Origin: an uncultured Lachnospiraceae bacterium
GTDB taxonomy: Bacteria > Bacillota > Clostridia > Lachnospirales > Lachnospiraceae
Direction of reading: 5' to 3'
Assembly: GCA_930972465.1 (NCBI GenBank)
Contig: CAKNHF010000027.1
Location: 1 to 40,022 of the forward strand
Length of the DNA: 40,022 nucleotides
The notes beneath the pieces were generated by a model. It was not told the origin of the DNA. It saw only the letters and a list, made by a program, of their open reading frames with translations, and did not search any database. The position numbers and the translations under genes are program-made. This document shows positions 29,546 to 32,929 of this stretch, one piece after another. Position 1 is the stretch's first letter; each line of letters opens with the position of its first letter.

Positions 29546-32500
29546 CTACATTTCAAACAGGCTCATCTGATGCCAGTTCTCTTCTTTCCTTTTTTTCACG
29601 GCGTTCTCTTCCTGTACAAGTCCATCCGGAAGACGGACAAGAAACTCGGAAATTTCTCCTGATGTTGTCAGAAGCAGCTCTTCCTTTGCCCGGGTAATCC
29701 CCACATAGAAGAGTCTCCGTTCCTCCTCCGGATCGGAAGGGTGCTTCTCGTTCTCCAGGGGAATAGATCCCTGATCCGCTCCGTAAATGAGCACGACCGG
29801 AAATTCCAGGCCCTTAGATCCATGGAGTGTCATAATTGTGACCGCCCCGGAAGTATACTTTTTCGTACCGCACCGCTTAAGATCACTCTCCACTCCAAGG
29901 TCAAGTGCTGTCATAAACTCCGGCATCGCCTTGTAGAACACGGTCATCTGCAGAAGTTTCTGCATGGCAGGGCTGTCCGAAAGCCCCATCTCATCCATCC
30001 ACTGTTCCATGAATTTCTGCGGCTTCTTCTTCCGATACAGAGGCCGGAATTTCTCCCCTACGGTTCTGACCGCCTCTGCCGTCATATCATTCCACTCCAG
30101 GTTCCAGAGCCGTTCTGCGCATAACCGCACCGACGGCAGATCCCCGGAATCTTCCAGATACCGGAAGAAACACAGACTGTCCTGCACGGCGCTGTCCGTC
30201 AGAAAGTCCTCCCGTCCTGCCACAATATACGGGATACTCTCCTGCTTCAGACATTTCTCCACAAGTTCCGCCTGATGATGCGTCCTGCAGAGAACTGCGA
30301 TCTCATCGAACCCCCTTGTCTTCCTGTCTCCCATGTCCCAGGCTGCCTGGTGGGCTTCCAGCATGCCGATTCCTCCTACAAGCCGGTTGATCTCTTTTGC
30401 TATGAAGACTGCCTCCCCCATGGGACTTCCCGCATGAACCAGGCGTACAGGCACGTTATCCGGACAGTTCGCGCAGAGCGGCCGCCTGTTCTGTTCCCCG
30501 TCCTGCGATATAACGGCCCACGCCGCATTCAGTATCTGCGGAGAAGACCGGTAATTTTCTTTCAGCTCCACAAACTGCAGGTCACTGTATTCTTCACTGA
30601 GTTTGTCGAAACACGCCGCGTCTGCGCCGCGGAACCCGTAGATCGACTGATCCGGATCTCCGATCACAAAGAGTTCCCGTCCTGCGCGGCTCCAGAGTTT
30701 CACCAGCCGGAACTGCGCCTGATTGATATCCTGGAATTCATCCACAAGCAGATATCGGAACCGCTTCTCCCACCCGTCAGACACATTCCCGCTCTCGATC
30801 CTGTCCGCAGTCCGCAGCAGAAGATCGTCAAAGTCCCAGAGATTTCCGTATCGCTTCTTCTCCTCATATATTCCATATGCCTGCTGCCAGAGTGCATCGG
30901 GAATCTTTTCCTCCCCGAGTCCTGCCGGCAGGCCGGACTTAGACCGCGAAACCGATTCCAGAAATTTCTTCGCGCTGATGGAAATTCCGCTCTCCACGAT
31001 CGTTTCCTCTGCCAGTCTCCGCTGTTCCTCGTCCGTCATGAGGATCGGCTGTTCCCCCTGTTCCTTCAGGAAATTCAGACAGATGGCATGAAACGTTCCG
31101 ATTTGCATGGAACGCGCCGCCAGTTTCTTCCCGGTCTCACGCTCAATCCTCTCCCGCATCTCTGCCGCGGCCTGATTCGTAAATGTAACAGCGGTGATGT
31201 CTGACGGTCTTACCTTCCGGTATTCCATCAGGAATCGGAGACGTGAGACAAGAGTTTTTGTCTTTCCTGTTCCCGGACCCGCTATCACGGCAATATGCGG
31301 CGCATTGCAGCGCACCGCGTATTCCTGTTCCGGATTCAGTACAGGAGCCGCCGGGATGCCCGTATCCTTACAGATTTCTTCCGCCGGCGCCTTAAGCGTT
31401 TCATTTTCCTCCGCCGGTATCTTCATCATCGGTACTGTGCCCGCATCTCGTCTGCTTTTTCCCTCCTCTCTGCCGGAAGACTCCCCGTTTTTCCCGGCTG
31501 TCCCCAGCAGATCAAAAAAGTTCATCTGACCTTCCGTATTATTCAGTTCCTCTGCACTGAACAGCCGGATTACTCCGTATTCACCGTCGAACCCCGGAAT
31601 ACGTTCCACCCGGCCATCCCGCAGCCTTCCGATCCCTTCGGCGACCCGGTCTCCGGATACACGGCGGATATCCTCAAGAGGGAGATTTCTCAGAATCTCA
31701 AACTCCGGTCCCAGCTCAGCGAGTATGCGGTGATATTCACGGACGGCCTTTTTACTCGCCGCCGATGTTCCGATGGAAGCGCCGATAACCTCCGGAAGCG
31801 GCACAAGACTCTCAAACCGCTTCGCATTCTCTCTGATGTATCCTTCCTCACGGTCTGCAAGCTCCTCCACCCGATGGGAAACTCCGATGGTGATCTTCCG
31901 TCCGCATACAGGACATTTTCCATTATATTTCAGTGTCTCCGAAGGCGTCAGGCAGAGATTGCACTTGCGATGTCCGTCCATGTGATATTTCCCTTCTTCC
32001 GGGAAAAACTCTATGGTGCCTCCGAGCCCTTTTCCGGTCTGAATCGCCTCTGCCATAGCTTCATATTCCATCGGTATATCGAACAGTGTCGCCTCCCTCC
32101 CCAGTTTGGCCGGAGAGTGCGCATCCGAATTCGAAATCAGCTGAAACCGGTCCAGGGCCGACACCCGCCAGTTCATCGGCGGATCGGAGGAAAGCCCGGT
32201 CTCCATGGCGTGAATGTACGGGGTGAGATCCTCAAAGCATTCTTCTACCGTATCGAAGCCCGAGAAAGCACCAAAGAGCGAGAAATGCGGCGTCCAGATA
32301 TGGGCCGGAACATACACTGCCTTCGGACAGAGTTCCAGTATGATCTCCAGAAGATCATGGCAGTCCAGTCCCAGGATCGGCCGCCCGTCTGAATGTATAT
32401 TTCCGATCTGCTCCAGTCTGGCCGATATCTTCTCTGCATCCTCAAGTCCGGGCAGAAGGATCAGACTGTGGACCTTGCGTACTTTTCCGTTCTTTTTATA

Positions 32501-32779
32501 GATAGAACTGATCTCGCCGGTGACGACAAAACGCGGGATCACCTCATGGGGGATCCTCTCCTCCCTGATCCTGTACTCATCTTTGAGTACATAGAATCCA
32601 TCCTCCGCCGGCTCCAGTTTCTCCTCAAGTTCCTCCCGCCAGGCCGGGTGGGTAAAATCCCCTGTTCCCACGATGTGGATCCCCTTCCGCCTCGCCCAGA
32701 GATCCAGATGCTCAGGCGTACAGTCCCTGCTCGTCGCCCGGGAGTAACGGGAGTGGATATGTAAATCTGCTATGTACAT
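29546..32779 (-). CDS. Endonuclease-Q-like PHP nuclease fused to a UvrD/PcrA-type helicase
   Basis: 1077 residues. Residues 1 to about 410 match the EndoQ family: ADLHIHSRYSRATS (His7, His9), GTGDFTHPAW (Asp41, His44), SNSDAHSPAKLGRE (Asp219, His221) and a zinc module CNLC...CPVC (Cys273, 276, 289, 292). EndoQ cuts DNA 5' of deaminated bases. After a charged linker (about 430-480) comes an SF1A helicase: GPGTGKT (501-507), VDEFQD (679-684), GDPDQSIYGFRGA, ENYRSS, TLHGSKGLEF and YVGITRAKEE. QMNFF (418-422) and the terminal QMSLF (1071-1075) look like sliding-clamp motifs. The start at 32779 follows GGTGATTTCA; the frame extends to 32845 without family similarity. Confidence 0.92.
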   Translation of the reverse strand: MYIADLHIHSRYSRATSRDCTPEHLDLWARRKGIHIVGTGDFTHPAWREELEEKLEPAEDGFYVLKDEYRIREERIPHEVIPRFVVTGEISSIYKKNGKVRKVHSLILLPGLEDAEKISARLEQIGNIHSDGRPILGLDCHDLLEIILELCPKAVYVPAHIWTPHFSLFGAFSGFDTVEECFEDLTPYIHAMETGLSSDPPMNWRVSALDRFQLISNSDAHSPAKLGREATLFDIPMEYEAMAEAIQTGKGLGGTIEFFPEEGKYHMDGHRKCNLCLTPSETLKYNGKCPVCGRKITIGVSHRVEELADREEGYIRENAKRFESLVPLPEVIGASIGTSAASKKAVREYHRILAELGPEFEILRNLPLEDIRRVSGDRVAEGIGRLRDGRVERIPGFDGEYGVIRLFSAEELNNTEGQMNFFDLLGTAGKNGESSGREEGKSRRDAGTVPMMKIPAEENETLKAPAEEICKDTGIPAAPVLNPEQEYAVRCNAPHIAVIAGPGTGKTKTLVSRLRFLMEYRKVRPSDITAVTFTNQAAAEMRERIERETGKKLAARSMQIGTFHAICLNFLKEQGEQPILMTDEEQRRLAEETIVESGISISAKKFLESVSRSKSGLPAGLGEEKIPDALWQQAYGIYEEKKRYGNLWDFDDLLLRTADRIESGNVSDGWEKRFRYLLVDEFQDINQAQFRLVKLWSRAGRELFVIGDPDQSIYGFRGADAACFDKLSEEYSDLQFVELKENYRSSPQILNAAWAVISQDGEQNRRPLCANCPDNVPVRLVHAGSPMGEAVFIAKEINRLVGGIGMLEAHQAAWDMGDRKTRGFDEIAVLCRTHHQAELVEKCLKQESIPYIVAGREDFLTDSAVQDSLCFFRYLEDSGDLPSVRLCAERLWNLEWNDMTAEAVRTVGEKFRPLYRKKKPQKFMEQWMDEMGLSDSPAMQKLLQMTVFYKAMPEFMTALDLGVESDLKRCGTKKYTSGAVTIMTLHGSKGLEFPVVLIYGADQGSIPLENEKHPSDPEEERRLFYVGITRAKEELLLTTSGEISEFLVRLPDGLVQEENAVKKRKEENWHQMSLFEM

Positions 32780-32929
32780 TGAAATCACCTCTCTGTACCT
32801 TATCCTGATGTATTCACTCAAAAATTCCAGTTTCAATTTTATCACAGAAAGTATGAAACTGCCACCGGCTCCGGACGCTGCTCTTATTCAATTTATTCCA
32901 TTTCAGAATATATGCCGTCTGAAGTGGAA

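Follow-up and report, generated by a model that had tools for sequence, protein, structure and literature searches.

The DNA analysed here (hereafter, the window) is a stretch of 40,022 nucleotides from an uncultured Lachnospiraceae bacterium (assembly GCA_930972465.1, contig CAKNHF010000027.1). We focused on one gene in it, which encodes an Endonuclease Q (EndoQ) and a UvrD/PcrA-like helicase in a single chain (hereafter, the EndoQ-UvrD fusion; Table 1). Based on the open-reading-frame listing, the gene runs on the minus strand from an ATG at 32779 to a stop at 29546 and encodes 1077 aa. The longest frame (29546-32845, minus strand, 1099 aa) begins 22 aa earlier at an in-frame GTG at 32845; ATG 32779 was taken as the start because the start shared by relatives, MYIADLHIHS, aligns there. 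The plus strand over the same coordinates has six stops in the single frame tried. The original prediction for this DNA, made from the letters alone, had described one uninterrupted frame of 1077 residues without giving its strand, and this frame was confirmed.

The window's genome (2.81 Mb, 86% complete) carries the full-length protein in a single copy, on contig C27 of 64, and its other matches are to the helicase only. By the tree of EndoQ domains, the closest relatives of the fusion gene are from Lachnospiraceae, several of them named Mediterraneibacter. Both halves share one frame at 92 of 107 relative loci that were fetched, and 84 of these have a complete helicase, which rules out a mis-assembly or two genes read as one and confirms that the single-chain fusion is real.

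Table 1 Features of the EndoQ-UvrD fusion gene. Residues are counted from ATG 32779; PfuEndoQ is the EndoQ of P. furiosus.
Feature	Positions	Strand	Residues	Basis or remark
EndoQ-UvrD fusion gene	29546..32779	minus	1-1077	Pfam, NCBIfam and structure-database matches; stop codon 29546-29548
Endonuclease Q half	31556..32779	minus	1-408	NCBIfam, PfuEndoQ match, model, alignment
Predicted zinc site, H270-x2-C273 ... C289-x2-C292	31904..31972	minus	270-292	PfuEndoQ alignment
Junction clamp-binding-like motif, QMNFF	31514..31528	minus	418-422	About 10 residues past the EndoQ homology
Linker	31340..31513	minus	423-480	Predicted disordered; variable in length and sequence
UvrD/PcrA-like superfamily 1A (SF1A) helicase	29645..31339	minus	481-1045	Pfam, PcrA/UvrD structures, alignment, model
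C-terminal clamp-binding-like motif, QMSLF	29555..29569	minus	1071-1075	In the low-confidence tail of the model (1062-1077)

The N-terminal half is an Endonuclease Q

The N-terminal half is an Endonuclease Q by sequence, fold and residues. A structure-sequence search matched residues 4-406 to the solved PfuEndoQ chains (E 6.5e-49), and 131 of 372 columns (35%) are identical in the alignment with PfuEndoQ. The NCBIfam model TIGR00375 is matched over its whole length by residues 4-404 (E 1.4e-52), with 179.4 bits against a curated cut-off of 326.6, and the fusion is therefore not that equivalog as NCBI draws it. The AlphaFold2 model of this half matched the EndoQ structures 5zb8 and 7k30 in Foldseek, with template modelling scores (target) of 0.85-0.86 and E values of 8.2e-30 to 1.0e-27. 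Another PHP family was ruled out, given the E value of 0.0015 for CehA/McbA.

The named EndoQ residues and their roles were drawn from PMC4357722 and the review PMC8307549; these and all other articles are cited from the parts available to us. Pfu D6, H8, H10, E76, H84, H139 and E167 correspond to D5, H7, H9, E89, H104, H160 and E193 of the fusion. These PHP residues, together with D219 and H221, are identical in all 20 aligned fusions, as are the base-gating H160, G195 and S197 (Pfu H139, G169 and S171). Pfu E76, H84 and H139 are essential PHP residues (PMC4357722, PMC8307549), and H139, G169 and S171 exclude T and A from the PfuEndoQ pocket (PMC8307549).

A four-cysteine zinc module had been proposed for this half. 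C273, C276, C289 and C292 are indeed present, but the predicted ligands that align with Pfu C249, C252, C268 and C271 are H270, C273, C289 and C292, with one Cys replaced by His. H270 is invariant in the 20 fusions, while C276 is kept in 17 and replaced in three. Having looked, as set out beforehand, for a better-fitting PHP family or a loss of the EndoQ metal and zinc residues, we found the metal, gating and zinc residues kept with this one exchange, in agreement with the EndoQ reading of the original prediction.

The C-terminal half is a UvrD/PcrA-type helicase

Pfam placed UvrD-helicase at residues 481-731 (E 2.6e-61) and UvrD_C at 975-1040, and the solved structures of PcrA, UvrD and Rep match approximately 481-883 (E 5.4e-66 to 2.5e-58). 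The SF1A motifs GPGTGKT (501-507), DEFQD (680-684), QSIYGFRG (711-718), HGSKGLE (986-992) and GITRAK are mostly invariant over the 20 fusions. In the 2B region (about 884-974), mostly helical in the model, the homology to PcrA breaks off. The NCBIfam equivalog cut-offs were missed for pcrA (317.8 against 911.2 bits), rep (294.1 against 951.45) and uvrD (262 against 1144.45).

The AlphaFold2 model of the whole protein, built from the 20 fusions, has two folded halves and a mean predicted local distance difference test score (pLDDT) of 78.4; its predicted template modelling score is 0.51, too low for conclusions on how the halves are arranged towards each other. The pLDDT is below 50 at 416-478, 805-818, 963-977 and 1062-1077. 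The top Foldseek matches of this model are UvrD, PcrA and Rep, followed by PfuEndoQ. Structure prediction and domain searches of both halves, which had been proposed as a check, thus returned the 5zb8/7k30 matches and a UvrD/PcrA-like C-terminal half, and the helicase, the PHP motifs and the complete SF1A motif set of the original prediction are all in the sequence.

Distribution of the fusion

We surveyed 200 genomes of the window's family, one per genus, for an EndoQ domain at E ≤ 0.001. The domain was found in 25 genomes, as an in-frame fusion in 22 (window included), as a stand-alone protein in two (G003, G035) and as an interrupted copy with an in-frame stop in the helicase in one (G104). 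A survey of the phylum gave a match in 203 of 398 genomes. Among the matches listed, these were either query-like (whole matches with at least 54% identity) or distant, the latter being stand-alone proteins of about 390-450 aa with approximately 26-35% identity (hereafter, TIGR00375-type).

Both halves lie in one frame at 45 of the 56 query-like phylum loci fetched (at least G231, G287, G361, G404 and G440 were left out), at 22 of 24 other loci of the family, counting in the interrupted G104, and at 25 of the 27 loci from named genomes (L034-L060). Eight of the 92 fusions in this total of 107 loci are cut by contig ends or stops. The frames with EndoQ alone numbered 18, comprising 16 stand-alones, L196 (in-frame stop after the junction motif) and L204 (a 66-residue fragment). 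The scan of named genomes took the best 80 of 231 relatives; looking there for a stand-alone origin of the helicase half, we found no EndoQ frame at E 1e-10 in the helicase-only matches (L061-L113).

The phylogenetic survey that had been called for shows the fusion recurring across three phyla, Bacillota, Thermodesulfobacteriota and KSB1. Named carriers include Sporomusa acidovorans, Bacilliculturomica massiliensis, Desulfogranum japonicum, a Desulfobulbus and a KSB1 bacterium. Three copies are interrupted, with a stop inside the helicase in L150 (5017-5019), a stop past the junction motif in L196 (4351-4353, minus-strand count) and a frame break near the N-terminus in L204; either decay or sequencing errors may account for them.

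A mobile or phage gene was considered and rejected. The 144 matches in phage records all stayed short of 80% coverage of the query, and the ten listed are confined to the helicase part. A plasmid search gave no match of the EndoQ half, and a scan seeded by six exact query peptides found no viral-contig relative of this half.

Evolutionary history

Two trees were built by quick searches, with support from the Shimodaira-Hasegawa-like approximate likelihood ratio test only. The first holds 129 EndoQ domains, and the second holds 72 of these, picked by hand, and PfuEndoQ. The 20 sampled TIGR00375-type proteins form one clade (support 100). The query clade comprises 92 fused, 16 stand-alone and one split row, and these three states need 11 changes; between fused and stand-alone there are 10 changes, of which nine are forced by well-supported branches (16 stand-alone rows). 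The stand-alones of Lachnospiraceae nest among fusions, and one of them (L053) retains the cvfB-dnaE order seen in fused relatives, L039 among them; in this family the helicase has thus probably dropped out in place. Four stand-alone members branch deepest when PfuEndoQ is left out (support 92); when it is included, on a long branch, the Thermodesulfobacteriota and KSB1 fusions take that place. We are thus unsure that the clade began as a fusion, since its deepest members change with the root.

Two clamp-binding-like motifs flank the helicase

We defined a strict clamp-binding-like pattern as Qxx[LMI]F or QxxFF, the junction as the 30 residues around the end of the EndoQ homology and the C-terminus as the last 20 residues. 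The protein in the window has exactly two strict matches, QMNFF at 418 and QMSLF at 1071. The junction motif was found in 73 of 92 fusions (mean in shuffled sequences 2.9, maximum 9) and the C-terminal motif in 78 of 84 complete fusions (mean 1.8, maximum 6), although the shuffles overstate independence because the pattern was picked after viewing the alignment and many rows are related. Both occur together in 63 of the 84, and the C-terminal motif is the extreme end of the protein in 31 of 78. Outside these two places, the helicase averages 0.07 strict matches per protein and EndoQ has none. A looser pattern gave 81 of 92 at the junction (shuffled 8.1) and 80 of 84 at the C-terminus (shuffled 4.9). 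QL[S/D]LF, or QxxLF, is a known clamp-binding consensus (PMC12309361, PMC3919608); QMSLF fits QxxLF and QMNFF is near it, and both lie within low-confidence stretches of the model.

A strict motif is absent from the last 20 residues of all 16 stand-alone EndoQs in the query clade and of all 20 sampled TIGR00375-type EndoQs. Twelve of the 16 stand-alones end within 10 residues past the EndoQ homology, and the other four (L191, L193, L209, L211) extend 12 to 25 residues without the motif. The absence of a strict end motif from all 16 suggests that the helicase and the junction motif go together, and a junction motif that is missing wherever the helicase is missing makes a clear prediction for function. 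Archaeal EndoQ requires a C-terminal PCNA-interacting peptide (PIP box) for PCNA binding and stimulation, and clamp-motif consensus sequences are mentioned for bacterial EndoQ homologues (PMC4858679). Clamp contact by EndoQ is thus already an existing idea, while two motifs around a helicase are new as far as the literature could be searched. The original prediction had included neither the motifs nor the wide spread of the fusion, nor the repair genes beside it in one family.

A stand-alone helicase from a deltaproteobacterium (L061) has 33% identity to the helicase half and ends in a clamp-like QKGLF, with no EndoQ in the retrieved DNA.

Gene neighbourhoods

In one genus (g226) of the family f24, a uvrB-like gene lies upstream of the fusion and is co-directional with it at eight loci. 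A uvrA-like gene follows downstream at five, directly at three and after one intervening gene at two; at two loci uvrA is followed by the beginning of a uvrC-like gene. At six of the eight loci, a small gene pair on the opposite strand, VapBC-like by eye, separates uvrB from the fusion. This neighbourhood was Pfam-checked on L212 and is also seen at L216, of the same g226 type. At L186, from another genus of f24 and likewise Pfam-checked, the fusion is the first gene of a co-directional series that encodes LigD primase-polymerase, Ku and ATP-dependent ligase. A DUF763 gene overlaps the start of the fusion by one base at two loci of the family f12 (L188, L189), which also carry a stand-alone EndoQ paralogue at a distance of 5-7 kb. 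Two genomes (G476, G522) hold both a fusion and a stand-alone EndoQ, on different contigs.

Within the window, cvfB and dnaE are encoded about 8 kb downstream of the fusion on the same strand. No clade-wide conserved operon partner was found beyond local synteny among the 25 largest clusters and the 25 most frequent Pfam families shown. Defence matches among 108 neighbouring proteins of relative loci were few and nearly all confined to single members (25 of 34 families shown). One of these proteins is a strong match to JetA of Wadjet (E 2.4e-149) and is not recurrent.

Glycosylases in the genomes bearing EndoQ

A match to the uracil-DNA glycosylase (UDG) superfamily was found in 192 of the 200 family genomes and in 24 of the 25 bearing an EndoQ domain. 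The sole bearing genome without one is the window's own, whose UDG absence is not established because the assembly is 86% complete. The TIGR04274 hypoxanthine glycosylase scored over its cut-off in 10 of 25 bearing and 109 of 175 non-bearing genomes (Fisher p 0.049) and, with weak hits included, in 11 of 25 and 112 of 175 (Fisher p 0.077), counts and p values that ignore the relatedness of the genomes. Endonuclease V is rare (6 of 200 genomes; 1 of 25 bearing, 5 of 175 non-bearing). The link between the fusion and a missing hypoxanthine glycosylase family is weak, and the fusion may possibly repair hypoxanthine where TIGR04274 is missing. Replacement of glycosylases by the fusion is not supported by any of these counts. 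The original prediction of a one-protein alternative to glycosylase-based repair is accordingly left without support, and given UDG in nearly all bearing genomes, the fusion adds to uracil glycosylase and does not replace it.

Proposed function

We consider it fairly probable that the fusion is a clamp-tethered nick-and-unwind repair enzyme for deaminated bases, a single chain that would perform the two opening steps of endonuclease-initiated (alternative) excision repair. This is based on the EndoQ identity of the N-terminal half, the invariant pocket residues, the SF1A motifs, the two clamp-binding-like motifs, the PCNA binding of archaeal EndoQ, the repair neighbours in f24 and the searches that returned no phage record with 80% of the query and, for the EndoQ half, nothing from plasmids or viral contigs. 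The motifs flanking the helicase would tether the protein to the sliding clamp DnaN on new or repaired DNA. The EndoQ half would then flip a uracil, hypoxanthine or apurinic/apyrimidinic (AP) site into its pocket and nick just 5' of the lesion, leaving a 3'-OH and a 5'-phosphate. UvrD-type helicases translocate 3' to 5' (PMC7776575), and the fused helicase would load on the intact strand at the nick; travel in this direction on that strand would displace the lesion-bearing fragment, which may thus be peeled off from its 5' end. The gap could be refilled from the 3'-OH by a polymerase on the same clamp, with a ligase and a 5' nuclease completing the repair. Nicking followed by unwinding is plausible on the domain content and in line with the published EndoQ models, which have polymerase strand displacement or helicase removal after incision (PMC4357722). 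The broader proposal of a widespread bacterial enzyme that couples glycosylase-free incision, strand removal and the replication clamp through two clamp contacts, as an analogue of archaeal EndoQ-PCNA repair, has in our view an even chance of being right.

Several observations weigh against a repair role of this kind. A strict motif is lacking at the junction of 19 of the 92 fusions and at the C-terminus of 6 of the 84 complete ones, many of these misses being near variants (QLCFL, GEPSLF, QMRLPF), and a motif alone is not an interaction; in B. subtilis DnaE, the motif QMGLF shows very weak binding (PMC12309361). The EndoQ-domain gene occurs patchily (in 25 of 200 family genomes), and the helicase half is absent from part of the clade, which makes the fusion dispensable. 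All eight uvr neighbourhoods belong to a single genus and amount to one case, the Ku/LigD neighbourhood comes from a single genome, and no recurrent repair family was seen among the 108 neighbours (25 of 132 Pfam families shown). The near-universal UDG in the bearing genomes also puts the need for a second uracil system in question.

The fusion could nick DNA with a cellular substrate other than deaminated bases, for example AP sites, or make strand-discrimination nicks for mismatch repair at the clamp. PfuEndoQ also cuts AP sites and oxidised pyrimidines (PMC8307549, PMC6202378), long branches part the query clade from the sampled TIGR00375-type EndoQs and PfuEndoQ, so that specificity may have moved, and most bearing genomes already hold UDG. 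Since the pocket residues that discriminate uracil and hypoxanthine from T and A are invariant in the 20 fusions, we think such a shift of substrate rather unlikely. A Gabija-like role in anti-phage defence, in which the nuclease-helicase attacks uracil-containing or otherwise altered phage DNA, would agree with the best PADLOC score of the helicase half, which is to GajB over near its whole length (E 7e-76), but this half matches very many GajB models, and these seem to hit UvrD-like proteins broadly. Bacillus EndoQ may serve antiviral defence besides repair, and the B. subtilis enzyme resists inhibition by the phage protein Ugi (review PMC8307549); the patchy distribution of the EndoQ-domain gene would also fit. 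Against these points stand the scarcity of defence matches among the neighbours, the repair genes adjoining the fusion in f24 and the plasmid and viral-contig searches, in which the EndoQ half found no relative, and we regard a defence role as quite unlikely.

Two unrelated activities might also have been joined for co-expression, with a helicase that works elsewhere and gains nothing from EndoQ. PcrA is thought to clear forks or transcription, and the frequent changes between the fused and stand-alone states indicate that EndoQ can do without the helicase. The single-chain architecture across three phyla, the conserved junction motif and its apparent pairing with the helicase make such a chance union very improbable.

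Comparison with known systems

We found no description of an EndoQ-UvrD fusion in the searchable literature, whose scope left aside subscription papers on the B. pumilus enzyme and structures; domain databases may list the architecture. The available parts of PMC8307549, PMC7690668, PMC7776575, PMC4357722, PMC6202378, PMC4858679, PMC11354406, PMC3820547 and PMC7824862 do not mention it. EndoQ has been described as occurring in "some limited groups in Bacteria" (PMC6202378), and our surveys suggest that bacterial EndoQ-type genes are commoner and differently built than stated there. With EndoQ, helicase and clamp-like motifs joined in a single protein from a mesophile, the processing that follows EndoQ incision can be put to a direct test.

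The fusion shares with the EndoQs of P. furiosus and T. kodakarensis (5zb8, 7k30-7k33) the homology over 4-406, the PHP and gating residues, the columns of the zinc site and a sliding-clamp peptide (clamp-like in the fusion) after the EndoQ domain. It differs from PfuEndoQ in its 35% identity and in H270 at the position of the zinc ligand C249. In place of the single C-terminal PIP box of the stand-alone archaeal enzymes, the fusion has two bacterial-type motifs, and it adds a helicase. The TIGR00375-type EndoQs, presumably the type of the Bacillus enzymes, occur in many genomes of the window's phylum and are homologous across the EndoQ half, but form a separate clade and have no helicase. The 20 sampled have no strict clamp-like end motif, although the consensus is reported for bacterial homologues (PMC4858679).

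PcrA, UvrD and Rep share the SF1A motor with all its motifs and give the best structural matches, whereas the fusion is far under their equivalog cut-offs and has a divergent 2B region and a clamp-like end motif. Gabija likewise pairs a UvrD-like helicase with a nuclease partner, and the GajB model covers residues 482-1041. GajA, the OLD/TOPRIM nuclease beside GajB in Gabija, is absent from the 25 of 34 families shown for the 108 neighbours of relative loci, a scan that lay outside the immediate neighbours of the window's own gene. Unlike in Gabija, the nuclease of the fusion is an EndoQ and is part of the same chain as the helicase.

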